Origin: Breoghania sp. L-A4
GTDB taxonomy: Bacteria > Pseudomonadota > Alphaproteobacteria > Rhizobiales > Stappiaceae
DNA length: 64,000 nt
Assembly: GCF_003432385.1 (NCBI RefSeq)
Contig: NZ_CP031841.1
Location: 4,706,501-4,770,500, forward strand
Reading direction: 5' to 3'
Below, piece after piece: positions 7,501-24,513 of this stretch; position 1 is the first letter of the stretch; every line of letters starts with the position of its first letter. Under the pieces are notes generated by a model, which saw nothing but the letters and a program-made list of their open reading frames with translations, was not told where the DNA came from and made no database searches. The position numbers were made by a program, and so were the translations under genes.

Positions 7501-7706
7501 CCCACATCGCGCGCCGAAAGATTGAAGCCCGGCAGCAGGCTCAGCCCGACCGGTCCGTCGATGCGCAGCCGCCAGCCCGTCGCGGCTTCGACCTGGGCGA
7601 CGATTTCTCTCTTGATGGTCTCTTTGGGCAGGAAAAACGGGACGATCAGCCCGGCCGCCACGACGGCAAACAAAAGGGCGCCGAAACCGACGAGCAAACG
7701 TTTCAC
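4518..7706 (-). CDS. AsmA family protein (reads as four pieces; three apparent -1 frameshifts)
   Basis: Together the four frames encode one continuous AsmA-type protein of about 1063 residues: N-terminal membrane anchor (VGFGALLFAVVAAGLIVPFFL), an AsmA N-domain with LRIDGPVGLSLLPGF, and a C-terminal AsmA_2 region ending in GFGKKK. AsmA-like proteins span the periplasm and are linked to lipid transport and outer-membrane homeostasis. The frame breaks near 6845-6847, 6282-6284 and 5563-5565, each beside a CCC run (GGG on the coding strand). One extra G at each point joins the pieces without loss, for example ...SGTARGDMVDLAQL... at the second site. I favour sequence error over a true pseudogene. 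Confidence 0.8.
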
Positions 7707-8087
7707 GCGGACCTCCCGCCGGAGCGCCGCCCGCGAGAACCGACATGGTCTCGCGACAAGCCGCGTCCGGATTCACACTCGCGGCGCACGCTCCCGATGA
7801 AAAACGTCTCCGTTCGCCCGCAGGAAGATGCGCCTGGCCGTGCCGAAATCGAATCGGAGCGAATCACCAAACGGGGAGATTCATCCCGATATCCGTCCCT
7901 GCATGACAAGAATTCGCACGCGGATCAATCCATCGCACGGGTCACGCAAATGTACTGACCCGTCCGGTTCCAAGCGAACTCCGCCGCCACGCGGTCATCC
8001 AGCACGTGGATTTTAGGCAAAAGCATGACCATACGGAGGCGGCGGCAGCCGCTTCCACGCGCCCGGCGCCGGCGTTACACCGCCGGT
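7707..8087. other. Intergenic region between AsmA gene and urtE
   Basis: No supported gene in about 380 bases. Short open frames here have no recognisable content or ribosome site. The AsmA promoter must lie at the left end. The right end holds a hairpin just after urtE (see 8069-8086). Confidence 0.5.
8069..8086 (-). terminator. Hairpin just downstream of urtE
   Basis: A perfect 6-bp dyad CCGGCG-N6-CGCCGG starts one base after the urtE stop codon. There is no T-run after it on the minus strand, so it is a GC-rich hairpin that could protect the mRNA end or assist Rho-dependent termination rather than a classical intrinsic terminator. Confidence 0.45.
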
Positions 8088-8783
8088 CTAAACGGTCAGG
8101 TGCCGGCGGACTTCCGTCTCCACCATGCTCTCGCGCGTGCCGGCGACGACGATCTCGCCGCGGTCCATCACCGCGAAATCGTCGGCCAGATCCCGGGCGA
8201 ACTCGAAATATTGCTCGACCAGCAGGATCGCCATGGTGCCCTGGTCGCGCAGCCATTCGATGGCCCGGCCGATGTCCTTGATGATCGACGGCTGAATGCC
8301 CTCGGTCGGCTCGTCGAGCACCAGGAGGCGCGGACGGGTGACCAGCGCGCGGGCGATCGCCAGTTGCTGCTGCTGGCCGCCCGACAGATCGCCGCCGCGC
8401 CGCTTGAGCATGTCCTTGAGCACCGGAAACAGCTCGAACACGTCCTCGGGAACCGAGCGGTCGCCGTGTTTCAGCGGCGCGTAGCCTGTCTCCAGGTTCT
8501 CCTTGACGCTGAGCAGCGGGAAGATCTCGCGCCCCTGCGGCACATAGGCGATGCCCTGGCGGGCGCGGGCATGCGGCGTCAGCCCGGAGATGTCGGCGCC
8601 GTCCCATTCGATCCGCCCCTTGGAGATCGCATGCTGTCCGGCGATGGCGCGCAGCGTCGAGGTCTTGCCCACGCCGTTGCGGCCCATCAGGCAGGTGACC
8701 TTGCCGGCTTCCGCCTTCAGCGACACGCCCCAGAGCGCCTGCGCAGCGCCGTAGTGAAGATCGATGTTGTCGATGGTCAGCAT
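8088..8783 (-). CDS. urtE: Urea ABC transporter ATP-binding subunit UrtE
   Basis: A 231-residue LivF-like ATPase, last gene of the urtABCDE operon. It powers high-affinity urea import with UrtD. Walker A is GRNGVGKTS, the signature is LSGGQQQQLAIAR, and Walker B with the following loop is RLLVLDEPTEGIQPS; the switch His region is VEQYFEFA. The start MLTIDNIDLHYG is the usual UrtE N-terminus, so the upstream in-frame extension is excluded. A palindromic repeat separates it from urtD. Confidence 0.93.
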   Translation of the reverse strand: MLTIDNIDLHYGAAQALWGVSLKAEAGKVTCLMGRNGVGKTSTLRAIAGQHAISKGRIEWDGADISGLTPHARARQGIAYVPQGREIFPLLSVKENLETGYAPLKHGDRSVPEDVFELFPVLKDMLKRRGGDLSGGQQQQLAIARALVTRPRLLVLDEPTEGIQPSIIKDIGRAIEWLRDQGTMAILLVEQYFEFARDLADDFAVMDRGEIVVAGTRESMVETEVRRHLTV

Positions 8784-8812
8784 GGTGGTTGCCTGTGTTT
8801 GCTTTTCCGATC

Positions 8813-8957
8813 CGTCCCGGATCTGCGCAGCGGCATTCCATGCCGCGGCGCGTCCGGGATGACGCATCTTGAACTCGTCGCCCTAAGATCGCGCCATCTC
8901 TCGATTGTCATCCCGGACGCATTGCAGCACGCAGTGATGCGATGCAGATCCGGGACG
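8813..8957. repeat. Palindromic element with 14-bp perfect terminal repeats, inside the urt operon
   Basis: CGTCCCGGATCTGC at 8813-8826 is an exact inverted copy of GCAGATCCGGGACG at 8944-8957. Sub-terminal GTCCGGGATGAC and GTCATCCCGGAC segments form a further dyad. The 145-base element fills nearly all of the urtD-urtE gap, where tight spacing would be expected. It carries no gene. Confidence 0.75.
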
Positions 8958-8980
8958 ATAAGCGCGAGCGATCCCGCCAT

Positions 8981-9763
<783 letters not shown>

Positions 9764-9767
9764 GGGT

Positions 9768-10967
9768 TCACTCCGCTGCCTGGCCGCTGAGATTACCGCG
9801 CGCCGCGGCCGACTGCGGCGGGGCGCCGGGCCCCTCGCCGCGTCCCGATTCCGCGTTCGCGGAGATCCTGCGCTGGCGCAACGCCGTCCAGCCCTGGTTC
9901 ACGGTGCCGACGATGCCCTTGGGCAGGAACAGCGTCACGGCGATGAACAGCCCGCCCAGCGCGAACAGCCAGATCTCGGGCAGCGCGCCGGTGAACCAGG
10001 TCTTGGCGAAATTCACCAGCACCGCGCCGATGATCGGACCCACCAGCGTGCCGCGGCCGCCGACTGCCACCCAGATCACCGCCTCGATGGAGTTGGCCGG
10101 GGCGAATTCGCTCGGGTTGATGATGCCCACCTGCGGCACATAGAGCGCGCCGGCCACGCCCGCCATCATGGCGGAGACCACCCAGACGAACAGCTTGTAG
10201 TGCTCCACCCGGTAGCCGAGGAAGCGGGTGCGGCTTTCCGCGTCGCGCACGCCGACCAGCACCTTGCCGAGCTTGGAGCGGGTGATCGCGCAGGCGATCA
10301 TGAAGCCGAGGATCACCGCGATGACGGAGGCCGCGAACAGCCCGGCGCGCGTGCCATCCGCCTGCACCGAGTAGCCGAGGATATCCTTGAAGTCGGTCAG
10401 GCCGTTGTTGCCGCCAAAGCCCATGTCGTTGCGGAAGAAGGCCAGCAGCAGCGCGTAGGTCATCGCCTGGGTGATGATCGACAGATAGACGCCGGTCACC
10501 CGCGAGCGGAAGGCGAACCAGCCGAAGGCGAAGGCCAGCAGCGCCGGAACGAAGAGCACCATGACGGCGGCGAAGGGGAACATGTCGAAGCCGTACCAGT
10601 ACCAAGGCAGTTCCTTCCAGTTGAGGAACACCATGAAGTCCGGCAGGTCCGCGTTGCCGTAGACGCCGCGGGTGCCGATCTGGCGCATCAGATACATGCC
10701 CATGGCGTAGCCGCCGAGCGAGAAGAACGCCCCGTGGCCGAGCGAGAGGATGCCGCAATAGCCCCACACCAGGTCCACCGAGAGCGCCAGCAGCGCATAC
10801 GTCATGTACTTGCCGACGAGGCTCACCGCATAGGTCGGCACATGCAGCGGATGGTCGACCGGCAGCAGCAGATTGGCGGCGGGAACCGCCACCGCGATGG
10901 CCGCGAGGATGGCGATGACGATCAGCGCCTTGCCGTCCAGCGCGCGCAGGATGAACGAGGTGATCAT
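9768..10967 (-). CDS. urtC: Urea ABC transporter permease UrtC
   Basis: A 399-residue LivM-type permease. The ATG at 10967 overlaps the urtB stop codon as ATGA. Multiple membrane segments span the protein. The BPD_transp_2 hallmark GGRGTLVGPIIGAVLVN lies near residue 318, and WGYCGILSLGHGAFFSLGGYAMGMYL near residue 78 matches UrtC. The C-terminal 50 residues are polar and cytosolic. It partners UrtB to form the urea channel in the inner membrane. Confidence 0.93.
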   Translation of the reverse strand: MITSFILRALDGKALIVIAILAAIAVAVPAANLLLPVDHPLHVPTYAVSLVGKYMTYALLALSVDLVWGYCGILSLGHGAFFSLGGYAMGMYLMRQIGTRGVYGNADLPDFMVFLNWKELPWYWYGFDMFPFAAVMVLFVPALLAFAFGWFAFRSRVTGVYLSIITQAMTYALLLAFFRNDMGFGGNNGLTDFKDILGYSVQADGTRAGLFAASVIAVILGFMIACAITRSKLGKVLVGVRDAESRTRFLGYRVEHYKLFVWVVSAMMAGVAGALYVPQVGIINPSEFAPANSIEAVIWVAVGGRGTLVGPIIGAVLVNFAKTWFTGALPEIWLFALGGLFIAVTLFLPKGIVGTVNQGWTALRQRRISANAESGRGEGPGAPPQSAAARGNLSGQAAE

Positions 10968-12585
10968 GATTCCACCGCCCGGCCCTTGAGCGCGAACAAG
11001 CCGCGCGGGCGCTTCTGGATAAACAGGATGATGAACACCAGCACGAGGATCTTGCCCAGCACCGCGCCCGCGTAGGGCTCGAGGAACTTGTTGACCACGC
11101 CCAGCGTCATGGCGCCCACCAGCGTGCCCCAGAGGTTTCCGACGCCGCCGAAGACCACCACCATGAAGCTGTCGATGATGTAGCCCTGGCCGAGGTTGGG
11201 CGAGACGTTGTCGATCTGCGACAGCGCCACACCGGCGATGCCGGCGATGCCGGAACCCAGTCCGAAGGTCATGGCGTCGACCCACGGCGTGCGGATGCCC
11301 ATGGAACTGGCCATCGCCCGGTTCTGGGTGACGGCGCGCATGTAGAGCCCGAACTGCGTACGCTTGAGTACGCCGATCAGGGCCACGAAGACGGCCAGCG
11401 CGAAGAACAGGATCCACATGCGGTTGTAGGTCACCAGCATGTTGCCGACCTCGAACGCCCCGGACATCCACGAGGGGTTGCCGACTTCCTGGTTGGTCGG
11501 CCCGAAGATCGAGCGCACGGCCTGCTGCAGCACCAGCGAGATGCCCCAGGTGGCCAGCAGCGTCTCCAGCGGCCGGCCGTAGAGAAAGCGGATGATGCCG
11601 CGCTCGATCGCCACGCCGATGCCGCCGGCGACAAGGAAGGCCAAAGGCAGGGCGATGAACAGCGAATAGTCGAACAGCCCCGGCATGGTGGTGCGGATCA
11701 GCTCCTGCACCACGAAGGTGGTGTAGGCGCCGATCATCACCATCTCGCCGTGCGCCATGTTGATGACGCCCATGACGCCGAAGGTGATGGCCAGACCGAT
11801 GGCGGCGAGCAGCAACACCGAGCCGAGCGACAGCCCGTACCAGATATTCTGCGCCATCTCCCACTTGGCGAGATTGCGGTCGATCACCGCCGCCGCCTTT
11901 CGCGCGGCCTCGGCGACAGCGGCGCTGCCGGAGACCTCGGCCCCGTTCAGCGCGGAGCGCGCGTCACGGTCGGCGCGCTGCGCCAGCACGGCGATCGCGG
12001 CGATCTTATCAATGTCCGGCGCATCAGAATTCACGATGGCCGCGGCGCGGGCCTCGGTGAAGAGTTTTGTCAGCGCGGGGTCGGTCTCCCCGCCAGCGCC
12101 TTGTCGAGCGCGGCGATCGCTTCCGGATCGGCGGACTTGAACACCGCCTCCGCCGCCTCGCGGCGCACGGCCGGGTCGGGGCTCATCAGCGTCAGCGCGC
12201 CGAGCGAGGCGCTGATCAGCCGGCGCAGCTTGTTGTTGACCTTGATCTTCTTCATCGCCCGCGAGCCTTCCTCGCCGGCGGCTTCCCCGGTAATCGGGTC
12301 GAACAGCAGATAATCCCGGCCCTTTTCCTCCACGCGGAAGACCTGATTGTCGGATTTGCGGAAATACAGGGCGCCGTCGGACAGGGCTTGCAGCACGGGC
12401 GCCGCGGCGGGATCGCCGGCCTCCGCCATGGCTTCGACAGCGGCGGTGGTGTTCTTGAAGCCGCCGTCGGCCAGCGCGGCGATGTGATCGCTCAGGGTTT
12501 GCGCGCTCGCCCCGAATCCCGGGATGCCGCTCAGCATGCCGGCCATCAGGATCGCTGCGGCGAGCCTTTGAAGGAGAAATCTCAT
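10964..12585 (-). CDS. urtB: Urea ABC transporter permease UrtB (one apparent -1 frameshift)
   Basis: The reconstructed protein is about 540 residues: signal peptide (MRFLLQRLAAAILMAGMLSG...), a periplasmic N-terminal domain of about 200 residues peculiar to UrtB, and a LivH-type permease domain (AITFGVMGVINMAHGEM; SQIDNVSPNLGQGYIIDSF; GVGNLWGTLVGAMTLG). The reading frame breaks near 12088-12091 in a CCCC run. One more G on the coding strand turns ...ALAGRPTPR-stop into ...ALAGETDPALTKLF..., which continues into the permease. The gene overlaps urtC by 4 bases. A truncated UrtB would leave the operon useless, so a sequence error is the simpler reading. Confidence 0.88.
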
Positions 12586-12627
12586 GTCCCGGCCCTGGTT
12601 CGTCGAATGGAGAATTTGATGGCGGTT

Positions 12628-12672
12628 CGGCGGGATCCGCAGCGGTGCAAGACACCCTCGCGAATCCCGCCG
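12628..12672 (-). other. Intercistronic hairpin between urtA and urtB
   Basis: A perfect 9-bp dyad CGGCGGGAT / ATCCCGCCG encloses 27 bases and lies in the urtA-urtB gap. There is no T-run. Such hairpins after the solute-binding-protein gene often stabilise the upstream mRNA segment so that more binding protein than permease is made. Similar hairpins follow the binding-protein genes at 57.0 and 62.7 kb. Confidence 0.5.
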
Positions 12673-12710
12673 TCCCTCTTTTCAGAGATCAAGCGTCAGA
12701 GGTTTGAGCC

Positions 12711-14030
12711 TTACGAGCCCTTGCCGCCGCACTTGCCGGACTTGACGTTGAAGTTGCCGCAGGACATCGGCGCGCGCCAATCGGAGATCAGGTCGGCGGA
12801 GTCCGGCAGGTAGTCGGACCATGCGTCGCCCGGAACCAGGCCCGAGGTCTCGAACACGGTCTCGAACTGGCCGTCTTCCTGGATCTCGCCGATCAGCACC
12901 GGCTTGGTGATGTGGTGGTTCGGCATCATGGCGGAGTAGCCGCCGGTCAGGTTCGGCACGGAAACGCCCACGAGGCTGTCGATGACCGCGTCCGGATCCG
13001 TGGTGCCCGCCGCTTCCACGGCCTTCACCCACATGTTGAAGCCGATGTAGTGGGCTTCCATCGGATCGTTGGTGACGCGCTTGTCGTCCTTGGTGTAGGC
13101 GTGCCAGGCGTCGATGAACGCGGCGTTGGCGTCGGTGTCGGCGGACTGGAAGTAGTTCCAGGCGGCCAGGTGGCCGACGAGCGGCGTCGTGTCGAGGCCG
13201 GCGAGCTCTTCCTCACCCACGGAGAAGGCCACGACCGGGATGTCCTCGGCCTTGATGCCCGCGTTGCCCAGTTCCTTGTAGAACGGCACGTTGGCGTCGC
13301 CGTTGATGGTGGAGACCACGGCGGTCTTCTTGCCGGCGGAGCCGAAGTTCTTGATGTCGGAGACGATCGTCTGCCAATCGGAATGACCGAACGGCGTGTA
13401 GTTGATCATGATGTCTTCGGCGGCGACGCCCTTGGCCTTCAGATAGGCTTCCAGGATCTTGTTCGTCGTGCGCGGATAGACATAGTCGGTACCGGCCAGG
13501 ACCCAACGCTCGACGCCTTCTTCCTTCATCAGGTAGTCGACGGCCGGAATGGCCTGCTGGTTGGGGGCGGCGCCTGTGTAGAACACGTTGCGCTGGGACT
13601 CTTCACCTTCGTACTGGACGGGATAGAAGAGGATCGAGTTCAGCTCCTCGAACACCGGCAGCACGGACTTGCGCGACACCGAGGTCCAGCAGCCGAACAC
13701 CGCGTCCACACCGTTGACGGAAATCAGCTCGCGGGCCTTTTCCGCGAACAGCGGCCAGTCGGAGGCCGGGTCGACGACGACCGCTTCGAGCTGCTTGCCG
13801 AGAAGGCCGCCCTTCTTGTTCTGCTCGTCGATGAGCATCAGCATGGCGTCCTTCAGAGTGGTCTCCGAAATCGCCATGGTGCCCGAGAGCGAGTGCAGGA
13901 TGCCGACCTTGATGGTCTCGGCCGCCGAAGCGATGCCGCTCAGCGAGGTCGTCATCATGCCGGCGATCGCGGCGGCGCCCACGGCGCGCCGCACGTATTT
14001 CATGGTCGAAGCTGCAACCAGTGTTGCCAT
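12711..14030 (-). CDS. urtA: Urea ABC transporter substrate-binding protein UrtA
   Basis: A 439-residue periplasmic urea receptor. The chosen ATG at 14030 follows an AGGGGGA ribosome site 8 bases upstream. A signal peptide ends near residue 36 (GIASA-A). The mature protein begins ETIKVGILHSLSGTMAISE, the UrtA/FmdD start, with the hallmark GCWTSVSRKSVLPVFEELN and FYPVQYEGEES segments. First gene of urtABCDE, transcribed away from the sensor gene at 14347, with which it shares a 316-base control region. Confidence 0.95.
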   Translation of the reverse strand: MATLVAASTMKYVRRAVGAAAIAGMMTTSLSGIASAAETIKVGILHSLSGTMAISETTLKDAMLMLIDEQNKKGGLLGKQLEAVVVDPASDWPLFAEKARELISVNGVDAVFGCWTSVSRKSVLPVFEELNSILFYPVQYEGEESQRNVFYTGAAPNQQAIPAVDYLMKEEGVERWVLAGTDYVYPRTTNKILEAYLKAKGVAAEDIMINYTPFGHSDWQTIVSDIKNFGSAGKKTAVVSTINGDANVPFYKELGNAGIKAEDIPVVAFSVGEEELAGLDTTPLVGHLAAWNYFQSADTDANAAFIDAWHAYTKDDKRVTNDPMEAHYIGFNMWVKAVEAAGTTDPDAVIDSLVGVSVPNLTGGYSAMMPNHHITKPVLIGEIQEDGQFETVFETSGLVPGDAWSDYLPDSADLISDWRAPMSCGNFNVKSGKCGGKGS

Positions 14031-14043
14031 AACAGCAGTCCCC

Positions 14044-14069
14044 CTGTGATCGGTCTCTGTGATCGGTCT
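14044..14069 (-). repeat. Tandem 13-base direct repeat in the urtA leader
   Basis: The 13-mer CTGTGATCGGTCT occurs twice head-to-tail (14044-14056 and 14057-14069), immediately 5' of the urtA ribosome site. It could be a slippage product or a repeated protein- or RNA-binding site; nothing in the sequence decides. Confidence 0.6.
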
Positions 14070-14137
14070 GCGGCCGGCCCTTGGGAGCGGACCGGTCCAT
14101 CGGAGGCAATGGTCAGCCGATATTGTGCGGTGCCATA

Positions 14138-14153
14138 TACGTCGATTGACGTA
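14138..14153. promoter_or_regulatory. Perfect inverted repeat TACGTC-N4-GACGTA, candidate response-regulator operator
   Basis: The 16-base dyad TACGTCGATTGACGTA lies 108-123 bases upstream of the urtA start. On the urtA strand it is followed 12 bases later by ACAATAT, a possible -10, so the dyad would sit over the -35 region. LuxR/NarL/FixJ-type regulators bind TAC...GTA dyads, and a LuxR-type regulator is encoded in the divergent operon. The link is inference. Confidence 0.5.
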
Positions 14154-14222
14154 GGCGGCTGCGCCATTCGTGCAGATTTTACCCCCCGGCCCCGGGCATT
14201 GCCGCGCCACTGGACAAAAAGG

Positions 14223-14238
14223 CGGCACGAACCCTGCA
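14223..14238 (+). promoter_or_regulatory. Sigma54-like promoter for the sensor kinase gene
   Basis: CGGCACGAACCCTGCA carries GG and GC separated by exactly 10 bases, the sigma54 -24/-12 spacing, with CACG and CTGCA flanks close to the consensus. It points at the gene starting at 14347, leaving a leader of about 100 bases. It would put the sensor under general nitrogen control. Confidence 0.5.
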
Positions 14239-14346
14239 AAGCAGCAGAAACCGGCGAGAAGGACGCGTCCAGTATCGGGCGGCCTTCCGGGGTTCCTCGC
14301 GAGACTTGGACCAAAGCGGGAAATGTTGTGCTGAATTATTCGGCAG

Positions 14347-17300
14347 ATGAGTAAAAAGAAGTCACATCGCATGACGGCACGGCAACGCATTCTTCCAATC
14401 CGGCGAAACTACAACCAATGGGTCGCCAATCAGACGCTGGAAGACTACGCGCTGCGGTTTACGGCCAAGAAGGCGCGGCGCTTTTCCTCTTCCCGCATCG
14501 CCCAGACCGCCATCGGCGCCATCTCCTTTCTCGCGCTGGAAGCCATCGGCGGCGCCATCACGCTCTCCTACGGCACGGTCAACGCCTTCTGGGCGATCGT
14601 CGTGGTGAGTCTCGTCATCCTCGGCGTCGGCATTCCGATCGCCCGCTACGCCATGCGCTACGGCGTCGACATCGATCTGCTGACCCGCGGCGCGGGCTTC
14701 GGCTACATCGGCTCCACGGTCACCTCGCTGATCTATGCCTCCTTCACCTTCATCCTCTTCGCCATCGAGGCCTCGATCATGTCGAGCGCGCTGGAGTTCG
14801 CCCTCGGCGTGCCGCTGTGGATCGGCTACATCATCTCGGCCGTGGCCGTCATCCCGCTGGTCACCCACGGCGTGACGCTGATCAGCCGCTTCCAGCTCAT
14901 CACCCAGCCGGTCTGGATCGTCCTCAACATCCTGCCCTTCCTTTTCATCGCCTTCATGGACTGGGAGAAATTCGACCTGTGGCGGAATTTCGCCGGTCTG
15001 GGTGCGACAGGCCCGGACGCCGGCGGCGTGGATCTCCTGAAATTCGGCGCGGCCTCGGCCGTCATCCTGGCGCTGATGGCGCAGATCGGCGAGCAGGTCG
15101 ATTTCCTGCGCTTCCTTCCCGCGCAAGACGCATCCAGGAAACGCCACCGGCTGGCGCTGTTTCTCGCCGGCCCCGGCTGGGTGGTGCTGGGTGCGCCGAA
15201 GATGCTGGCCGGTTCCTTCCTCGCGGTGCTGGCGCTGTCGGCCGGCATCCCGGCCGAGCACGCCGCCGAGCCCTCGCGCATGTACGCGGTCGCCTTCGGT
15301 TACATGCTGCCGTGGGAGAGCGCGGTTCTGCTGCTGATGGCCTGTTTCGTGGTGGTCTCGCAGCTCAAGATCAACGTGATGAACGCCTATGCGGGCTCGC
15401 TGGCGTGGTCGAACTTCTTCTCCCGCCTCACCCACAGCCACCCGGGCCGCGTGGTGTGGCTGCTGTTCAACGTCGCCATCGCGCTGGCGCTGATGGAACT
15501 GGGCATCTACCGCGTGCTGGAAGAGACGCTGGGGGTGTTTTCCATCGTCGCCATGGCCTGGCTGTCGGCGATCTCGGCCGATCTCTTCATCAACAAGCCT
15601 TTGGGGCTCTCGCCGCCGGGCATCGAGTTCAAGCGCGCCCATCTCTACGACATCAACCCGGTGGGCACCGGATCCATGGTGCTGGCGGCCGGCGTCGCGC
15701 TGGTCGCTCACTACGGCCACCTGGGCGCGGAAGCCGCGGCGCTCTCCACCTTTCTCGCCATGATCGTCGCCTTCATCGCGGCCCCGGCCATCGCGATCAC
15801 CACCCGCGGCAAATACTATCTGGCGCGCAAGCCCCGTCGCCACTGGCAATCGAAGAGCGAGATCAGCTGCTCGATCTGCGAAAATCCCTTCGAGCCCGAG
15901 GACATGGCCTATTGCCCCGCCTACCAGGCGCCGATCTGCTCGCTGTGCTGCTCGCTCGACGCGCGCTGCCACGACCTGTGCAAGCCCAACGCGCGCATCA
16001 GCAACCAGATTGCCACCGTCGGCGACAGGCTGTTGCCGCAGTGGGCCTTCACCCGGCTGCAGACCCGCCTCGGCCGCTACACGATGACCGCGATGCTGGC
16101 GATCGCCGCCATCGGACTGATCCTGGCGGTGATCTACAGCCAGGCGGTCGCGGGTCACCCGGGCGACACGGAGATCGTCGCCACGACCGTGACGCTGATC
16201 TTCTTCGTCTTCACCATCCTCGCCGGCATCGCCACCTGGTTCCTGGTGCTGGCCCATGACACGCGGCACGTGGCGGAGGAGGAATCGGCGCGCCAGAACA
16301 CGCTGCTTTTGAAGGAGATCGACGCGCACCAGAAGACCGACGCGGCGCTCCAGCGCGCCAAGGAAGTGGCCGAGGCCGCCAATCTCGCCAAGAGCCGCTA
16401 TGTGGTGGGGCTTTCCCACGAGCTGCGCACGCCGCTCAACGCGGTCCTGGGCTACGCGCAGGTTCTGGAGCGCGACGAGAGCATTCCGCCGGCGCGCCAC
16501 GCCTCCATCCGCGTGATCCGCCGTTCCGCCGAACATCTGTCCGGGCTGATCGACGGGCTGCTGGACATCTCCCGCATCGAGGCGGGCCGCCTGCGCGTCT
16601 ATTCCAACGAAATCAACGTGCATGATTTCCTCGCCCAGATCGTCGACATGTTCCGCCTGCAGGCCCAGGCCAAGGGGCTGAAGTTTTCCTACGAGCGCGC
16701 CGACAACCTCCCCGCCTTCGTGCGCACCGACGAGAAGCGCCTGCGCCAGATCCTGGTCAACCTGCTGTCCAACGCCATCAAGTTCACCGAACAGGGATCC
16801 ATCGGACTGACGGTCGGCTACCGCTCGCAGGTGGCGCAGTTCATCGTCACCGACACGGGACGCGGCATCTCGGAGAAAAGCCTCACGCAGATCTTCGAGC
16901 CCTTCGCCCGCGGCGACGAGGAGGAACACAAGCGCGTGCCCGGCCTCGGCCTCGGCCTGACGATCACCCGGCTGCTGGCCGAAACGCTGGGTGGCGACAT
17001 CAAGGTGACCAGCGAACCGGGCCAAGGCAGCCGCTTCGAGGTGCGGCTGATGCTGGCCAGCGTGACGGATCCGAAACCCGTCCCGGTGCCCGACCGCACG
17101 ATCACCGGCTACGAAGGCCCGCGCCGGACGCTGGTCGTGGTCGACGACAACGCCGATCATCGCGGCCTGATGGCCGAGATCCTCGAGCCTCTGGGCTTCA
17201 CGCTGTTCTACGCCCCGGACGCCCAAAGCTGCCTCACCCTGGTGAAGGAGCTTGACGGCGACGTCGCGCCGGATCTGTTCCTGGTCGACATCTCGATGCC

Positions 17301-17751
17301 CGGCATGAGCGGCTGGGATCTGGTTTCCGCCTTGCGCGAGCAGGGCCGCACGGCGCCGATCATCATGCTGTCGGCCAACATCGGCGACGGCTCCTCGGGG
17401 CTCGTCGCCGAGGACCGGCACGACGATACGCTGGCCAAGCCCTTCGATGTGGCGCAGCTGCTCGACAAGCTGCAACGGCACCTCAAGCTGCACTGGACGC
17501 AGGCGCAGGATCCCCCCGCCGCGCCCCGCGCACATGGCAAGGCCGGGTTGAGAAACCCCGGCGCGCAGCATATACGGGAGCTGCTGAACCTGGGGGAAAT
17601 CGGCTATGTGCGCGGCATCGAGGCCAAGCTCGCCGAACTCGCGGAGGAACCGGACAACGGTCCCTTCGTCGCGGAGTTGCGCACCCACATCCAGGCGTTC
17701 GATTTCACCCGCTACGTCGACGTTCTCGAAGGGATAGGCGACGATGAGTAG
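14347..17751 (+). CDS. Permease-like hybrid sensor: NCS1-type domain, Cys cluster, histidine kinase and receiver
   Basis: A 1134-residue inner-membrane sensor. Residues about 30-490 form a 12-helix domain like NCS1 purine/cytosine permeases (IGGAITLSYGTVNAFWAI; GAGFGYIGSTVTSLIYASF). Residues 508-545 hold eight cysteines (CSIC, YCP, ICSLCC, RCHDLC), likely a zinc site. Two more helices (about 578-640), a coiled coil, then HisKA with phospho-His691 in SHELRTPLN and HATPase (NLLSNAIKF; DTGRGIS; GLGLGLT) follow. A receiver domain carries Asp981 in LVDISMPGMSG. The stop overlaps the regulator gene (ATGAGTAG). Position beside urtABCDE suggests that it senses urea or a related N-compound; whether it still transports is unknown. 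Confidence 0.9.
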   Translation: MSKKKSHRMTARQRILPIRRNYNQWVANQTLEDYALRFTAKKARRFSSSRIAQTAIGAISFLALEAIGGAITLSYGTVNAFWAIVVVSLVILGVGIPIARYAMRYGVDIDLLTRGAGFGYIGSTVTSLIYASFTFILFAIEASIMSSALEFALGVPLWIGYIISAVAVIPLVTHGVTLISRFQLITQPVWIVLNILPFLFIAFMDWEKFDLWRNFAGLGATGPDAGGVDLLKFGAASAVILALMAQIGEQVDFLRFLPAQDASRKRHRLALFLAGPGWVVLGAPKMLAGSFLAVLALSAGIPAEHAAEPSRMYAVAFGYMLPWESAVLLLMACFVVVSQLKINVMNAYAGSLAWSNFFSRLTHSHPGRVVWLLFNVAIALALMELGIYRVLEETLGVFSIVAMAWLSAISADLFINKPLGLSPPGIEFKRAHLYDINPVGTGSMVLAAGVALVAHYGHLGAEAAALSTFLAMIVAFIAAPAIAITTRGKYYLARKPRRHWQSKSEISCSICENPFEPEDMAYCPAYQAPICSLCCSLDARCHDLCKPNARISNQIATVGDRLLPQWAFTRLQTRLGRYTMTAMLAIAAIGLILAVIYSQAVAGHPGDTEIVATTVTLIFFVFTILAGIATWFLVLAHDTRHVAEEESARQNTLLLKEIDAHQKTDAALQRAKEVAEAANLAKSRYVVGLSHELRTPLNAVLGYAQVLERDESIPPARHASIRVIRRSAEHLSGLIDGLLDISRIEAGRLRVYSNEINVHDFLAQIVDMFRLQAQAKGLKFSYERADNLPAFVRTDEKRLRQILVNLLSNAIKFTEQGSIGLTVGYRSQVAQFIVTDTGRGISEKSLTQIFEPFARGDEEEHKRVPGLGLGLTITRLLAETLGGDIKVTSEPGQGSRFEVRLMLASVTDPKPVPVPDRTITGYEGPRRTLVVVDDNADHRGLMAEILEPLGFTLFYAPDAQSCLTLVKELDGDVAPDLFLVDISMPGMSGWDLVSALREQGRTAPIIMLSANIGDGSSGLVAEDRHDDTLAKPFDVAQLLDKLQRHLKLHWTQAQDPPAAPRAHGKAGLRNPGAQHIRELLNLGEIGYVRGIEAKLAELAEEPDNGPFVAELRTHIQAFDFTRYVDVLEGIGDDE

Positions 17752-18672
17752 TCCCGGTCCCACCGCGCGCCGCGACGTCGTCCTGGCGGTGGACGATTCG
17801 CCCGAGGCGCTGGGCTTTCTCACCGACGCGCTGGAGGCCGCCGGCGTCACCGTTCTGGTGGCGACCAGCGGCGAGGCGGCGCTCAACATCGCCGAACGCG
17901 TGACCCGGACATGGTGCTGATGGACGCGGTGATGCCGCGCATGGACGGGTTTGAGACCTGCAAGCGTATCAAGGCCAACAGCGCGCTTCAGCATGTGCCG
18001 GTGATCTTCATGACGGGGCTCACGGAAACCGAGCATGTGGTGCATGCGCTTGAATCCGGCGGTGTCGACTATCTGACCAAACCCATCGACATCGACGAAC
18101 TGCAGGCCCGCATCCGCGTGCATCTGGCCAACGCCCGCTCCGCCCAGAGCGCGCGCATTGCGCTGGACGCGGCCGGGCGGCACCTTCTGGCGATCGCCAG
18201 CAGCGGCGCGGTCCACTGGTCGACGCCGCAGACCCAGCAGATGCTGAAGACAATGACCGGGCGCGACGACGCCATCGACGACATCGGTCTCGATCTCGCG
18301 GACTGGCGGGCGGAAGACATCGCCACCCCGGCCGGCCAGACGGCCTCGTTCTCCATCGAGATCGCGCCGCGGACCCGGCTGCAGATGCACTATCTCGGCG
18401 CCATCGGCGCGGACGAATACCTGTTTCGGTTGACCACCGCGGACCATCCCAACCAGGACGAGATCCTGCGCCAGCATTTCTCCCTCACCAACCGCGAGGC
18501 GGAGGTGCTTCTGTGGATCGCCAAGGGCAAGTCCAACCGCGATATCGGGGAAATTCTGGGCCTGTCCCCACGTACCGTGAACAAGCACCTGGAGCAGATC
18601 TACACCAAGCTCGGCGTGGAGAACCGCGCCTCCGCCGCCGTCCGCGCCGCCCATGTGCTGCATGAGCTGTGA
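17744..18672 (+). CDS. LuxR/NarL-type response regulator (one apparent -1 frameshift)
   Basis: The reconstructed protein has about 309 residues: receiver domain (VLAVDDSPEALGFL; phospho-Asp in MVLMDAVMPRMDG; Lys in DYLTKPIDIDEL), a middle linker of about 100 residues, and a C-terminal LuxR-type HTH (FSLTNREAEVLLWIAKGKS; NRDIGEILGLSPRTVNKHL). The frame is lost near 17904-17906 in a CCC run; one more C changes ...ERVTRTWC-stop to ...ERVTPDMVLMDAV. ATG 17744 overlaps the stop of the sensor gene, so the two are translationally coupled. It likely controls urtABCDE. Confidence 0.87.
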
Positions 18673-19216: not shown

Positions 19217-20326
19217 TCAGACCCGAACCATGTGGTTGTCCCACTTGGCCCCCTCGCGCAGGGCCACGCGGCGCGGCGCGCCGGCGGCGTTGGGACGGTC
19301 GACCAGCAGCTCGCCCCCACCGTCGGAAATCAGAAATCCGCGCTCGCCTTCCGGCGCCAGCCCGCAGCAGTCGGCAACGCGTGAGCGCCCGAGAATCCGC
19401 CCCGTGGCGGCTTCCCAGTAGACAACCTGCCCGCCGCGCGGGCTCGACGTGCCGATCACCTCGCCGGTGCCATTGGCCATCACCGAGCCGACATAGTTGT
19501 TGAAGCCCGAGAGAATGTCGTCGGGCGCCTCGAACAGCGCCGGCTCCTTGCCCCACTGGCAGCGGCCCACGAGCTGCGGCCGGTCGGTCTTCGCACCCTG
19601 ATACTGGCAGCCGAACCACACCGCGCCCGCGCCGTCGATCGCCATGTGCCGGATCGACGACAGGCGGCTGTCCGCGCCCAACCGGTGGTTGGCGAGAATG
19701 TCGCCGGTCTCGCGGTCGATCAGCGCCAGCGTCGGCTGCATGGTCGGCAGGTTCAGCACCGTGCGGCCATAGTCGGGATGGGTTTCCATGCCGCCGTTGG
19801 CCACCACCAGAGTGCGACCATCGGGCGCCAGCAGCACCTCGTGCGGACCGACGCCGCCGGAGGAGAAGTCGCCGATCCGCTTGAAGCCGGCATCCACGTC
19901 GTAGATGCCGATGAAGCCCAGGCCGTTCTCGAAATCGTTCTCGGTGGCGTAGAGCAGCCGTCCGTCGGGCGAGAAGACGCCGTGACCGTAGAAGTGGCGC
20001 CCCTCGGGCGCATGGAAGAACTGCGGCTCCCGGCGGCCGTGCACATCGAAGGCGGCGGCGAAGGTGCCGGGACGCCGGGCGAAGGCCACACAGCGGCCGG
20101 TCGCCTCATGCAGCGTCACGTCGTGGCCCCGGTCGGGCAGCGCCACCGTGGTGATGTCGCGGCCGTCCTGGGTGAACACGGCGACCACGTGGCGGCCGTC
20201 GGCCTCCTTGCGCGCGGCAATGAACAGCGAATCGCGCGTTTCCATCGCGGCCAGGCCGCACGGGTCGAGACCGGCAAGCAGCGCGGCCCCCGCGCCGGCG
20301 AGCAGTGCGCGTCTCTCAATCTCCAT
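19217..20326 (-). CDS. DUF1513 domain-containing protein (Tat-exported, beta-propeller-like)
   Basis: A 369-residue protein of the DUF1513 family (COG3490). The start MEIERRALLAGAGAALLAG is a twin-arginine-type signal. The body has propeller-like repeats (HGVFSPDGRLLYATEND; GVGPHEVLLAPDGRTLVVANGG; SSIRHMAIDGAGAVWFGCQYQG). Its start overlaps the end of the upstream imelysin gene by 11 bases. It is the last gene of a four-gene set whose families are numbered consecutively as COG3487-3490. Role unknown, probably periplasmic and linked to iron handling. Confidence 0.85.
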   Translation of the reverse strand: MEIERRALLAGAGAALLAGLDPCGLAAMETRDSLFIAARKEADGRHVVAVFTQDGRDITTVALPDRGHDVTLHEATGRCVAFARRPGTFAAAFDVHGRREPQFFHAPEGRHFYGHGVFSPDGRLLYATENDFENGLGFIGIYDVDAGFKRIGDFSSGGVGPHEVLLAPDGRTLVVANGGMETHPDYGRTVLNLPTMQPTLALIDRETGDILANHRLGADSRLSSIRHMAIDGAGAVWFGCQYQGAKTDRPQLVGRCQWGKEPALFEAPDDILSGFNNYVGSVMANGTGEVIGTSSPRGGQVVYWEAATGRILGRSRVADCCGLAPEGERGFLISDGGGELLVDRPNAAGAPRRVALREGAKWDNHMVRV

Positions 20327-21404
20327 CGAGCGAATTGAACCCCATGATCGTGAACAGCGCGGCCGCCAGATCTTCGCCCACGGTTTGCCGCAGGCCGCCA
20401 AGCACCAGATTGACATAGGCCAGCTTGCCGTAGACGCCGGGATCCTTCGCCGTCTTCGTCAGCGGCTCCGGCACGGATCTGAGCACGCGCGCGGCATTGG
20501 CGAGCTCGAAGGGAATGCTGTTGGCAAGCCAGGAACTTTCTTCGCCCAGAACGCCTTCCAGCGCCATGCTGACGACGAAGTTCCGCAGTCCCGAGGCGCC
20601 CGCCGCGCACATCGCCATGGTGTTGCCCGAGCGGCGGAACGGCGCGCGCTTCGGCTTCACCTTGTCGATGCTGTCGCCGATCACCGGCAACAACTTCTGG
20701 TCGCGGATGATCTGCAGGCCGGTGGTGATGCTGCCGAGGATCTCGGCGGCGGATTCCTGATGCGAGCGGTAGACGGGATTGTCCGGCCCCGGCTCGAGCA
20801 GCAGCGCCCCGTAATTGTCGGGCCCCGTCCATCCGGCGACCAGTTCCGCGCCGATGACCGCGACGTTCTCGGCGATCACGCGGGCATAGGCGCAGCGGAA
20901 CCGGCCGTCCTCGCCACCCGCCAGCAGCGCCGTGCGCGCACCGTCAAACAGCACGGCCTCGAGCGCCGACAGACCCTGCACCGCGACGCTCTTGCCCTGC
21001 AGGCTGTCGAGCGTCAGCACGCTGGCGTCGTGGTCCCGGACGATCGCCTCCGCCTGACGCCGGCCGGTGGACTTGCGGTCCGGCCAGAACACCAGCCGCT
21101 CAAGCCGGTGATCCTCCAGCAAGGGGCCGAAACGCAGAAACTCGATGCGCGAATACCCCTCCAGCGCCGCACGATAGGCGGCCCCCACAGCCTCGTGCCC
21201 TTGAAGGCTGGGGCTTTCGCAAAACCCGTCGATCTCACTGCGCAGCACGGTCCCCGCGCGCTCGAAATCAGTGAAGGCGGGACGGATGTAACCGTCCACC
21301 GCATGGGCGACCACATGCGCCTGAACGGCGGCCGGATCCGCGCGCGCAGGGCCCGCCGCAAGCAGCAGCGGGATCATGGCGAGAGAGGACAGCCAGCGTT
21401 TCAT
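20316..21404 (-). CDS. Imelysin family periplasmic protein (COG3489 type)
   Basis: A 362-residue protein with signal peptide MKRWLSSLAMIPLLLAAGPARA and an imelysin (PF09375) domain. The start is chosen for the signal peptide; it lies 2 bases downstream of the oxidoreductase stop codon. Imelysins resemble the EfeO/M75 fold and bind or sense metal. The canonical GxHxxE motif is not obvious here (compare the copy at 23171), which may point to a changed function; LEAVLFDG occupies the corresponding region. Confidence 0.8.
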   Translation of the reverse strand: MKRWLSSLAMIPLLLAAGPARADPAAVQAHVVAHAVDGYIRPAFTDFERAGTVLRSEIDGFCESPSLQGHEAVGAAYRAALEGYSRIEFLRFGPLLEDHRLERLVFWPDRKSTGRRQAEAIVRDHDASVLTLDSLQGKSVAVQGLSALEAVLFDGARTALLAGGEDGRFRCAYARVIAENVAVIGAELVAGWTGPDNYGALLLEPGPDNPVYRSHQESAAEILGSITTGLQIIRDQKLLPVIGDSIDKVKPKRAPFRRSGNTMAMCAAGASGLRNFVVSMALEGVLGEESSWLANSIPFELANAARVLRSVPEPLTKTAKDPGVYGKLAYVNLVLGGLRQTVGEDLAAALFTIMGFNSLDGD

Positions 21405-21406
21405 GG

Positions 21407-22945
21407 TCACAGGGACTCCAGAAAGCGGATCAGTGCCGCGCGCTCGCCGCGCGACATCGCGGCAACCGTGTCGCGGGCGGATTGCGCCTCGCCGCCATGC
21501 CACAGGATGGCTTCCAGCAAGTTGCGCGCGCGCCCGTCGTGCAGGAACTGGGTGTGGCCGCTGACCGTCTCGGTCAGACCGATGCCCCACAGCGGCGACG
21601 TCCGCCACTCGCTGCCCGAGGCGTCGCCCACGGGCCGCCCATCGGCCAGGCCCTCGCCCATGTCGTGCAGCAGAAGGTCGCTGTAGGGCCAGATGAGCTG
21701 GAACGCCTGTTCCTTCTGCGGCGCGTCCTTGCGTGTCACGTATTTCGGAACATGGCAGGAGGCGCAGCCCGCGGCATAGAACTGCCGCTTGCCCTCGAGC
21801 ACCTGCGGATCCTTCACGTGCCGCCGCCTGGGCACCGCCAGATTACGCGCGTAGAAGGTCACCAGTTCCATGATCGGGTCCGGCGCTTCCACATCACCGA
21901 GCCGCGCCTGCACGCCCGACGGCATGGCCCGGCATTGCGCCTGCGCCTCGGTACAATCGCCCCAGGAGGCGGGCGCCTGCGGCGAGGAAATGCCGATATC
22001 GCCGTTGAACGCGCCGCTCGATTGCGCGGCGATGTCCGGCTGCGACGCCTTCCAGCCGAAACGGCCGAGCACGATCTCGCCGGTGGCCGAATCGCGCACC
22101 ATGGAGGGTCGGCCGGAGATCCCGTCGCCATCCGCGTCCTCCGGATCGGCATGAGCGAGAATGTCGCCCGCATGGATCTGCTCGATCAGCCCCAGCCCGA
22201 TCATCGGCGGCGCCACGCGCGGCGAGACCATCGCGTCCTCCGCCATCGGCCCGTTGGCGAGCCCGGTGACGCGGTAGCTGGGCTTGCGCAGCGAAACGGT
22301 TTCGCCCCCCGCCAGGGTCACGGGGATCTCGGTGTAGTCGATTTCCATGTGCCCTTCCGGCTCGAGGCCGGGCACCGCGAACTCCTGCAACTGACCGCCG
22401 TAGGTCGGCTCGGGAATGCGCAGCAGGCGCTTGTCGGCAAGCAGCCGGCGCTCTTCCTCGGTGCGCGGCGGCACCGACAGCCGCAGGAACATCGACGAGG
22501 CGGTCTCGCCCGGCGCCGGCGGCGCGCCGCGGCCATCCTTCAGGTGGCAGCGCTGGCAGGAACGCGCATTGAACAGCGGTCCGAGTCCATCGGACGCCTG
22601 CGTGGAGGACGGCGCGGACACCCACAGCTTGCGAAACAGCCCGTTGCCGAGCTTGAAGTCGCGTTCCTGCTCGAAGCTGAGATTGCCGAGAGACTGCGAG
22701 AAGATGTCGCGATTGATGCGTTTGCGCGTGGTGGCCGCGCCCGCCTGCATGATCTCGAAGGGCTCGGGCTTGGAAAAATCGTCCGTCGGCCGGATGACGG
22801 CGGCGACCCTGGCGCGCGTCTCGGCGTCGAGATCAGCGCGATGGGCGAGCGGACCCTCGGCCGCCGCGGCGGCGATGCAGAAGAGACCGGCCGTGACGGC
22901 GATCGTGACGGCCGCACGGGCGGCGATGGGAGACGGGAAATGCAT
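21407..22945 (-). CDS. Di-heme oxidoreductase family protein (DHOR / DUF1111)
   Basis: A 512-residue secreted cytochrome. A signal peptide occupies about residues 1-29. Two heme c motifs are visible: CQRCH (130-134) and CASCH (394-398), with the family's NARSCQRCH and GCASCHVPKY contexts and a C-terminal LLHDMGEGLADGRP...GWR-type segment ending in FLHDGRARNLLEAILWHGGEA. DHOR proteins (PF06537, COG3488) lie next to imelysin genes in many marine and rhizobial genomes and are thought to do periplasmic redox chemistry, perhaps on iron. Confidence 0.88.
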   Translation of the reverse strand: MHFPSPIAARAAVTIAVTAGLFCIAAAAAEGPLAHRADLDAETRARVAAVIRPTDDFSKPEPFEIMQAGAATTRKRINRDIFSQSLGNLSFEQERDFKLGNGLFRKLWVSAPSSTQASDGLGPLFNARSCQRCHLKDGRGAPPAPGETASSMFLRLSVPPRTEEERRLLADKRLLRIPEPTYGGQLQEFAVPGLEPEGHMEIDYTEIPVTLAGGETVSLRKPSYRVTGLANGPMAEDAMVSPRVAPPMIGLGLIEQIHAGDILAHADPEDADGDGISGRPSMVRDSATGEIVLGRFGWKASQPDIAAQSSGAFNGDIGISSPQAPASWGDCTEAQAQCRAMPSGVQARLGDVEAPDPIMELVTFYARNLAVPRRRHVKDPQVLEGKRQFYAAGCASCHVPKYVTRKDAPQKEQAFQLIWPYSDLLLHDMGEGLADGRPVGDASGSEWRTSPLWGIGLTETVSGHTQFLHDGRARNLLEAILWHGGEAQSARDTVAAMSRGERAALIRFLESL

Positions 22946-23170
22946 GAGGGCTCTGTCCTTGCAGATCGGCTGGCTGAGAAGAATAGCGGACCGTACTGAA
23001 TTCCTAGCCGAGCACCGTAGAGCGCCGTTCTGCCCCTCTCGAACGGCCATTACAATCGGCTGTGGAACTTTTTTGCCGGGATCCGGCGCGCCATCGTGTC
23101 GCGGCGCGCCGGGAATGTCAGCGGGGACAGGCGCGGTGTCGGTTCGCGCCTGTCCGTGATCGCTCGCGGC

Positions 23171-24433
23171 TTACTGGAAGACCGAACCGGGGTTGTCGAG
23201 GCTGTCGGAGCCTTCGAATGCCACGGCGTCGAGCTTCAGCACCGCCACCGCCCGCTCGATCGACTTGGTCTGCTCGACCAGTCCGTCGATGGCGGCCTGC
23301 ACCACCGCATTGCCCGCGTCGTTGCCTTCGCCGATCATCTGGTCGTAGGCCTCGCCTTCCTCGGCGCGGGTCTTCATCGCGGACATGGCTTGCATGGTCG
23401 CGTCAAGCTTGGCGCTGAGCTCGGCGGCGACATCCGCATCGGCCGCGGCAACCAGATCCTTGATGCCTTCGCCTTCGACGACAGAGCCGTCCACGCGGGT
23501 GTACTTGCCCTGGTAGACGTTCCGGATGCCCAGCGCGTCGTAGTAGTGCGAGTTGTGGGTGTTGTCGGAGAAGCAGTCATGCTCTTCCTCGGGATCGTGC
23601 AGCAGCAGGCCGAGCTTCATGCGCTCGCCGGCCAACTCGCCATAGGACAGCGATCCCATGCCCGTGAGGATCGTGGCCAGCGCGGCCGTCTCGCCGCCCT
23701 CGCTCAGCGCGGTGCGCGCGGCGCCGTCGGGCTGCCAGTTGGCGACCATCTCTTCCAGATCCGCGATCAGCAGCTTGGAGGCCGAGCTCAGATACTGGAC
23801 GCGGCGATCGCAGTTGCCGCCGGTGCAGTTGGCCGGATCGAAATCCGTCGCCGGGCGGGTGCCCGCGCCCGCGCCCGTGCCGTTGAGGTCCTGGCCCCAC
23901 AGCAGGAACTCGATGGCGTGGTAACCCGACGCCACGTTGGATTCCACTTCGCCCGCTTCCTGCAGCGTGCCGGAAATCAGCTCGGGCGTGATCGTGGTGG
24001 TGTCGACCGTCTCGCCGCCGATGGTCAGCGACGTGTTGGCGATGACGTTGGCCACATAGAGATCGTTCTCGTCGGATTCACTGCCGTAGGAGGCATCCAC
24101 ATAGTCGATCAGGCCCTCGTCGAGCGGCCATGCGTTCACGCGGCCTTCCCAGTCGTCGACGATGGCGTTGCCGAAGCGGTAGACCTCGGTCTGCTGGTAG
24201 GGCACGCGGGCCGCGAGCCAGGCGTCACGGGCGGCCTTCAACGCCGCCTCGCTCGGATCGGCCGCCAGCGCCGCGATCGCGGCGTCAAGCGCCTTCGCGG
24301 TGGACAGCGAATCCTCATAGCCCGCCTGGGCGATGTCACCGTAGGTGTCGAGCACTTCAGCCGGGCCGGCCAGCGCGCTGGTCGCCAGCAGGCCGCACAC
24401 GGCGCCGATTGCGATTGCATTCAAGGATTTCAT
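23171..24433 (-). CDS. Imelysin family iron-regulated protein (IrpA-like)
   Basis: A 420-residue periplasmic protein with signal peptide MKSLNAIAIGAVCGLLATSALA. The imelysin motif GYHAIEFLLWGQDL (GxHxxE) is intact. A Cys pair region (ANCTGGNCDRR) and ERMKLGLLLHDPEEEHDCFSDNTH match IrpA/COG3487 proteins such as iron-regulated protein A of cyanobacteria. It is the first gene of the imelysin-DHOR-imelysin-DUF1513 run; 225 bases separate it from the DHOR gene, so a second promoter is possible. The likely role is iron binding or uptake at the envelope. Confidence 0.88.
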   Translation of the reverse strand: MKSLNAIAIGAVCGLLATSALAGPAEVLDTYGDIAQAGYEDSLSTAKALDAAIAALAADPSEAALKAARDAWLAARVPYQQTEVYRFGNAIVDDWEGRVNAWPLDEGLIDYVDASYGSESDENDLYVANVIANTSLTIGGETVDTTTITPELISGTLQEAGEVESNVASGYHAIEFLLWGQDLNGTGAGAGTRPATDFDPANCTGGNCDRRVQYLSSASKLLIADLEEMVANWQPDGAARTALSEGGETAALATILTGMGSLSYGELAGERMKLGLLLHDPEEEHDCFSDNTHNSHYYDALGIRNVYQGKYTRVDGSVVEGEGIKDLVAAADADVAAELSAKLDATMQAMSAMKTRAEEGEAYDQMIGEGNDAGNAVVQAAIDGLVEQTKSIERAVAVLKLDAVAFEGSDSLDNPGSVFQ

Positions 24434-24513
24434 CCTCAGGTCTCCCATGGGTGATTGTGTTCGGCGCCGCTTGCGACCGGCGCCTTGCGAACAGAAGCTT
24501 CAAAAATGCCCAA

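Follow-up and report, generated by a model that had tools for sequence, protein, structure and literature searches.

The window, i.e., the whole stretch of DNA that was analyzed, comprised 64,000 nucleotides of Breoghania sp. L-A4 (NZ_CP031841.1, positions 4,706,501–4,770,500, forward strand), and the coordinates below are those of the window unless another locus is named. The plus strand was found to contain a gene encoding a hybrid sensor kinase from nucleotide 14347–17751 (1134 codons, by the ORF list and Pfam). The start codon is perhaps located at 14371, because most relatives contained a Met close to or exactly at codon 9 (14371) and conservation upstream of this codon was slight; the true length of the kinase may therefore be 1126 codons. 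The protein contained an NCS1-permease-like sensor domain at 14371–15831 (residues ~9–495; by fold and profile, without a Pfam match), followed by an eight-Cys cluster at 15868–15981 (residues 508–545), two long helices predicted by the structure model ahead of the kinase core at 16060–16299 (residues 574–651), the HisKA and HATPase_c domains at 16390–17055 (Pfam, residues 682–747 and 794–903, respectively) and a receiver domain at 17134–17472 (Pfam Response_reg, residues 930–1042), all on the plus strand. The phospho-acceptor His691 was present within the sequence HELRTP and the receiver contained Asp981, so that the HisKA histidine, the HATPase_c domain and the receiver aspartate of a hybrid sensor histidine kinase were all found. 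The Cys residues were located at positions 508, 511, 523, 531, 534, 535, 541, and 545. An earlier note on this DNA had described a 1134-residue permease-like hybrid kinase with eight Cys, His691 and Asp981, and the ORF list, Pfam and the residue positions agree with it. The Pfam scan of the whole kinase gave matches to four families with E ≤1, and neither SLC5 nor STAC was among them; by these matches the protein is not an SLC5/STAC sensor kinase. With NCBIfam, the best 25 of the 147 matches of the whole kinase were all kinase models, and a weaker NCS1 match may lie among the rest.

The urt genes were found on the minus strand, as the earlier note had it when it called the pair divergent from urtABCDE. 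They comprised urtA at 12711–14030 (urea ABC transporter binding protein; TIGR03407, PF13433), urtB at 10964–12585 (frame broken near 12090), urtC at 9768–10985, urtD at 8981–9763, and urtE at 8088–8867. UrtA scored 565 bits against TIGR03407 (cut-off 492.75), and urtBCDE follow it. A UrtA paralogue from an amide operon also passed this cut-off, with 556 bits, and TIGR03407 therefore cannot tell a urea UrtA from an amide UrtA. Urease was present in the strain's own genome, so imported urea is usable.

The gene of the LuxR-type response regulator was found in two pieces on the plus strand. The first piece, 17744–17920, contained the start of the receiver and its frame ended after 58 codons, whereas the second piece, 17911–18672, contained the rest of the receiver and the LuxR/GerE DNA-binding domain in a different frame. 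The receiver and the GerE helix-turn-helix are thus both present, split over two frames, and the single overlapping LuxR-type frame of the earlier note is broken in the window; the start frame at 17744 does overlap the stop of the kinase, with the conserved remainder in another frame. An unbalanced one-base change was found near 17903 against 3/3 aligned relatives, which were without a frame change, and a similar unbalanced one-base change was found in urtB near 12090 against both relatives (n = 2) aligned there. As the response regulator frame is broken in the window sequence, the system in this strain is either misread or lost. That it is a decaying remnant, with the response regulator and urtB truly broken, is rather unlikely: two unbalanced one-base changes could come from ordinary decay, but the kinase, urtA, urtC, urtD, urtE, and the palindrome described below are all intact, and two isolated changes of one base also resemble assembly errors.

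Pfam and PDB sequence searches of the permease part gave nothing meaningful for NCS1. PF02133 (NCS1) did not match the window permease part alone, nor any of 29 members scanned (0/29 at E 1), and fold and profile tests were used in place of sequence searches. The ColabFold model of the permease part had a pLDDT of 77.7 and a pTM of 0.77. In the fold search of this model against PDB, the first five chains were CodB or Mhp1 (E 1e-9 to 2e-7), and 7qoa_A had a TM-score of 0.79 when scaled to the length of the target. Members of other LeuT-fold families appeared from E 1e-6 on, and the plant urea transporter DUR3 was found at rank 21 (E 4e-5). The model thus had the NCS1 fold as found in CodB and Mhp1. 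The profile of the permease part was joined by hhalign, with E 1.4e-38, to a set of three sequences of which only one matched PF02133. By the CodB/Mhp1 fold match and this profile join, the permease-like part is a distant NCS1-type domain; the NCS1-like nature claimed in the earlier note was upheld by fold and profile only, with no match to Pfam PF02133. The NCS1 transporters CodB and Mhp1 are the best fold matches of the domain, but they are without a kinase and without a Cys cluster, and the sequence of the window domain lies below Pfam detection.

Kinase matches were found in 17/41 near relatives, and in 133/397 genomes of the order, 27/385 of the class and 61/398 of the phylum, where each count includes a few weak matches, of which some or all are to ordinary permeases. 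The scan of named genomes gave at least 594 confirmed relatives; among the best 80 of these, all were Alphaproteobacteria by title except one MAG labelled Arenimonas, and the nearest were Stappiaceae. Records of plasmids matched the sensor in 535 of 72,556 cases, of which 342 were Klebsiella, and no relative of the sensor was found in the viral contigs searched. The kinase was absent in 17 of the 32 near relatives having UrtA at ≥70% identity; the urt genes can therefore be run without the kinase, which would be an added control and not a need.

The gene neighborhoods were counted in fetched loci, among them most, not all, of the strong class and phylum matches and loci from the best 80 of the at least 594 named-genome relatives, which lean the sample to close kin. 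Homologues with ≥600 matched residues were called full-length, by which the fragmented copies of G001 fall out, and the repeated loci (L166 = L027, L118 = L063) were left out of the distinct counts. Among 163 distinct full-length loci, the window included, 83 adjoined a true urt operon, followed by 65 with an operon of the UrtA paralogue (amide operon, mostly with the formamidase FmdA), 7 with urease, 3 with FmdA alone and 5 with none of these; one of the last five (L154) ends 771 bases upstream. The tie of the pair to urea uptake claimed earlier is thus borne out by the genes adjoining 158/163 distinct full-length homologues (urt, the related amide operon, urease or FmdA) and by a conserved palindrome that tracks urtA, and homologues lying usually away from urt genes, the outcome that would speak against the tie, were not seen. 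The 172 matching loci, which also hold the repeats, fragments, one ordinary permease (L104) and one free-standing relative (L195), contained a UrtA nearer to that of the window in 86 cases, where FmdA was found in 0/86 within the stretch, and a UrtA nearer to the paralogue type in 67, where FmdA was found in 58 and AmiE in 23. The remaining 19 loci were without UrtA; urease was present in 8 of them (one being L195) and FmdA in 3. In 162/164 full-length loci, more often than by chance, the kinase was followed on its own strand by the C-terminal part of the response regulator, the exceptions being L099 and L100, which belong to a shorter variant. On annotated plasmids, the neighbors of the pair were urtABCDE in Rhizobium and Shinella, formamidase and the paralogue operon in Raoultella, and formamidase alone in Methylovirgula.

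The Raoultella locus (L193, nucleotide 5909–16246) is located on a conjugative IncFIB plasmid and contains an amide-type sensor beside the urt-paralogue operon and formamidase; its response regulator is missing from the gene table of the plasmid and was found as a 40% match at 15497–16246. The shorter variant (L099, L100, L233, and L234) comprised 885–916 codons, with the same permease-Cys part and a different kinase. No receiver was found in L099, the only one of the four scanned, and these loci contained FmdA nearby and no palindrome.

The 16-bp palindrome TACGTCGATTGACGTA was present at 14138–14153 between urtA and the kinase, 108 bp from the start codon of urtA, 194 bp from the first ATG of the kinase, or 218 bp when the possible start at 14371 is taken, and we propose it as the operator of the response regulator. 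TACGTC-N4-GACGTA was the one block conserved in 12/12 aligned gaps between urtA and the kinase. With ≤2 mismatches allowed, the window contained one site, an exact one, against a shuffle mean of 0.72, so the count in the window alone is no evidence. A scan for sigma-70 promoters and terminators between urtA and the kinase gave none. The exact palindrome was found once per genome in 14/14 kinase-bearing relatives tested and in 0/13 tested with urtA and without the kinase, a test that covered neither the fragmented G001 nor four of the 17 kinase-free genomes. Across the order (397 genomes), the exact palindrome was present in 72/128 kinase-bearing vs. 15/269 kinase-free genomes, five genomes with only weak permease matches being counted as kinase-free; the Fisher p of 6e-29 is only nominal, because shared ancestry makes the genomes non-independent. 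Some of the 56/128 kinase-bearing genomes without an exact site were amide-linked.

A backwards control pattern also matched several dozen of the 397 order genomes, so one chance site per genome is not rare, and the placement of a site therefore tells more than its presence. Among the sites listed in kinase-bearing genomes, 53/59 were located ≤8 kb from the kinase, where ~0.2 would be expected. In the 109 loci with a kinase–urtA gap of ≤1 kb, a site (≤2 mismatches of 12) was present before urtA in 43/45 urea-type and 55/64 amide-type loci, the latter being scored against two patterns and so more leniently. In the 38 distinct loci with a gap of >1 kb, 29 had the site ahead of urtA and 3 had it ahead of the kinase, with one locus counted in both groups. 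By its position, the palindrome stays with its putative target urtA and not with the sensor. Under a stricter half-site rule, a site was located ≤600 bp from a feature start in 66/84 urea-type and 47/65 amide-type loci, and no site was found in 18 loci of each type. The variant TACGCA was common in amide-linked loci, and in some of these (L071, L072, L076, L078, L079, and L080) the palindrome was also present before FmdA. The urease-linked loci without UrtA in the stretch contained no site (0/7); three of the seven also showed urtCDE at the edge of the stretch, which places the urtA promoter outside the view. In G1025, a second site was found ~60 bp before an unlinked amiE, and among five distant sites opened in kinase-bearing genomes three adjoined no recognized target.

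The exact sites in 15/269 kinase-free genomes could mean that the palindrome is the site of a different transcription factor and that the pair merely travels with the urt genes, which we regard as highly improbable. The urtA upstream regions of all 17 kinase-free relatives contained at best a match with 3–6 mismatches of 12, and the sites of eight of the 15 kinase-free genomes were opened and none was beside urtA, another urt gene, FmdA or an amidase; the palindromes in kinase-free genomes were taken as chance. The site also accompanies the pair when the two are unlinked: G1044 had no site in 16 kb around the pair, but urtA on another contig has one ~240 bp upstream. The sensor recurs in many Proteobacteria, accompanied by what appears to be a DNA target site of its own.

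When 123 thinned permease parts were placed in a tree, the label 'urt-linked' had to change 7 times, where shuffled labels gave a mean of 41, and the urea-linked groups were scattered at several places among the amide-linked ones. The number and direction of the switches between amide and urea operons are unsure, as the tree is quick and midpoint-rooted, with some long branches meeting. No residue column of the alignment strictly separated urea-linked from amide-linked sensors. As the two kinds intermix and lack a strictly discriminating column, the ligand cannot be read from the sequence, and it is the linked genes that point to urea or short amides. Position 407 was tried as a discriminator of the two kinds and rejected: it was Gly in 51/54 amide-side rows and a non-Gly residue in most urea-linked clades, but Gly also in one urea-linked clade, which leaves it a lead only.

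The earlier note had also proposed purine-like ligands, which the neighborhoods did not favor, as the other linked genes found were those of formamidase, aliphatic amidase and urease. The ligand might be a classical NCS1 substrate (cytosine, a purine, hydantoin or allantoin) whose presence would signal organic nitrogen from which urea can arise; among solved folds, the closest belong to CodB, which transports cytosine, and Mhp1, which transports hydantoin, and the breakdown of purines and allantoin can yield urea. The linked enzymes among those tested, however, were the three just named, and the sequence is far from ordinary NCS1, so that we hold such a ligand to be very unlikely; urea or amides are more likely than purines. 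It is also unlikely, to a lesser degree, that the pair controls the urt genes while the permease-like domain either transports a substrate or has a structural role, with the Cys cluster letting the kinase respond to nitrogen status, ion flux, a metal or redox. All eight Cys were conserved in 122/122 thinned kinase rows, 113/495 positions of the permease part were kept in ≥98% of these 122 rows, as a working transporter could also show, the sensors were not split by the linked operon, and free-standing relatives exist. The linked genes, however, serve urea and amides and are not general nitrogen genes, and each of the 14 relatives tested had a single copy of the palindrome in its genome, which does not resemble a regulon for nitrogen in general.

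We consider it probable that the kinase and the response regulator form a two-component system dedicated to urea and similar short amides, with the NCS1-like domain as the receptor. The sensor very probably controls the adjoining genes for the import of urea or small amides. Computation gave the anatomy, the fold, the association with urt, amide and urease genes, the linkage of the palindrome to its target and its co-occurrence with the kinase; the simplest course of the signal would be as follows. The permease-like domain would act as the membrane receptor and bind the ligand (urea in the window; urea, formamide or acetamide in amide-linked relatives), which would shift its conformation. The eight-Cys cluster, in a role that we infer, and the two helices would pass this change to HisKA. 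The phosphate would then move from His691, probably through Asp981, to the LuxR-type response regulator, in this presumed order. The regulator would bind TACGTC-N4-GACGTA before urtA and most likely activate urtABCDE, where activation rather than repression is our guess. The step from the response regulator through the palindrome to urtA is the best supported one, judged only from genome comparisons. Where the genes adjoin, the same palindrome may also set the expression of the pair itself.

Transporter-type membrane domains fused to a histidine kinase are known from the SLC5/STAC sensor kinases CbrA, CrbS, and RpuS (PMC13022988; PMC5715377; PMC9100948). Of these, CrbS is likewise a hybrid kinase, and the gene of a pyruvate symporter is regulated by RpuS/R. 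The window protein shares the fusion of such a domain to the kinase with these proteins, whereas its domain is NCS1-like, without SLC5 or STAC in the Pfam matches; it also differs from them in the eight-Cys cluster between the permease part and the kinase and in the urea/amide gene targets. Ks-Amt5 is a single anammox protein in which an ammonium transporter is fused to a histidine kinase (PMC5764959). The likeness is a transporter fold for a nitrogen compound recruited as the sensor of a kinase, whereas Ks-Amt5 has the Amt fold and ammonium as the ligand and the window system has the NCS1-like fold with a response regulator and a conserved palindrome. In Pseudomonas, a paper on an amide operon places amiE, fmdA, fmdB, and urtABCDE together and suggests formamide uptake by the transporter (PMC13209695). 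This gene set of acetamidase/formamidase operons with urt-like transporters is that of our amide-linked sensor loci; the text of the paper mentions neither a histidine kinase nor a response regulator, whereas the sensor pair is present in the loci studied here (PMC13209695). A review on the diversity of sensor kinases names the Amt case, and NCS1, SLC5, symporter and urea are absent from its text; NCS1, nucleobase and urea are absent from the text of a paper on links between transporters and receptors. No earlier description of an NCS1-like urea/amide sensor system was found in the full-text literature, in which most subscription journals are outside coverage.

If the proposal is true, NCS1 joins the few transporter folds known as sensors of kinases, and urea and short amides, which are important nitrogen sources in the environment, gain a candidate receptor in this domain. 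It would also offer a natural series in which one type of sensor moved repeatedly between operons for amides and for urea. The 16-bp target site would open the proposal to direct tests in common soil and marine bacteria. A wider reading, which we put forward tentatively and would not yet favor, is a family of true transceptors for urea and short amides. Here an NCS1-type transporter would sense its substrate on binding or transporting it, and its signal would reach the hybrid kinase through a metal-binding eight-Cys cluster, located where CbrA has STAC; the regulon would be nearly single-site, and the family would have grown from free-standing NCS1-like permeases with a four-Cys tail and have passed more than once from the one kind of operon, amide or urea, to the other.

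A free-standing relative of 535 residues without a kinase was found on an Acinetobacter plasmid (L195, 9950–11557), where it contains four of the eight Cys, is located beside urease genes and is a candidate urea permease. In G895 and G935, a more distant free-standing permease with a four-Cys tail was present beside a UrtA-like protein. The free-standing NCS1-like permeases of L230 (7000–8472) and L231 (7250–8722), with a four-Cys tail and adjoining UrtA-like binding proteins, are possible ancestors of the sensor architecture. In the window itself, genes for DUF1513, imelysin, a di-haem oxidoreductase and imelysin were found in a row at 19217–24448, which are perhaps iron-related and lie outside this system.
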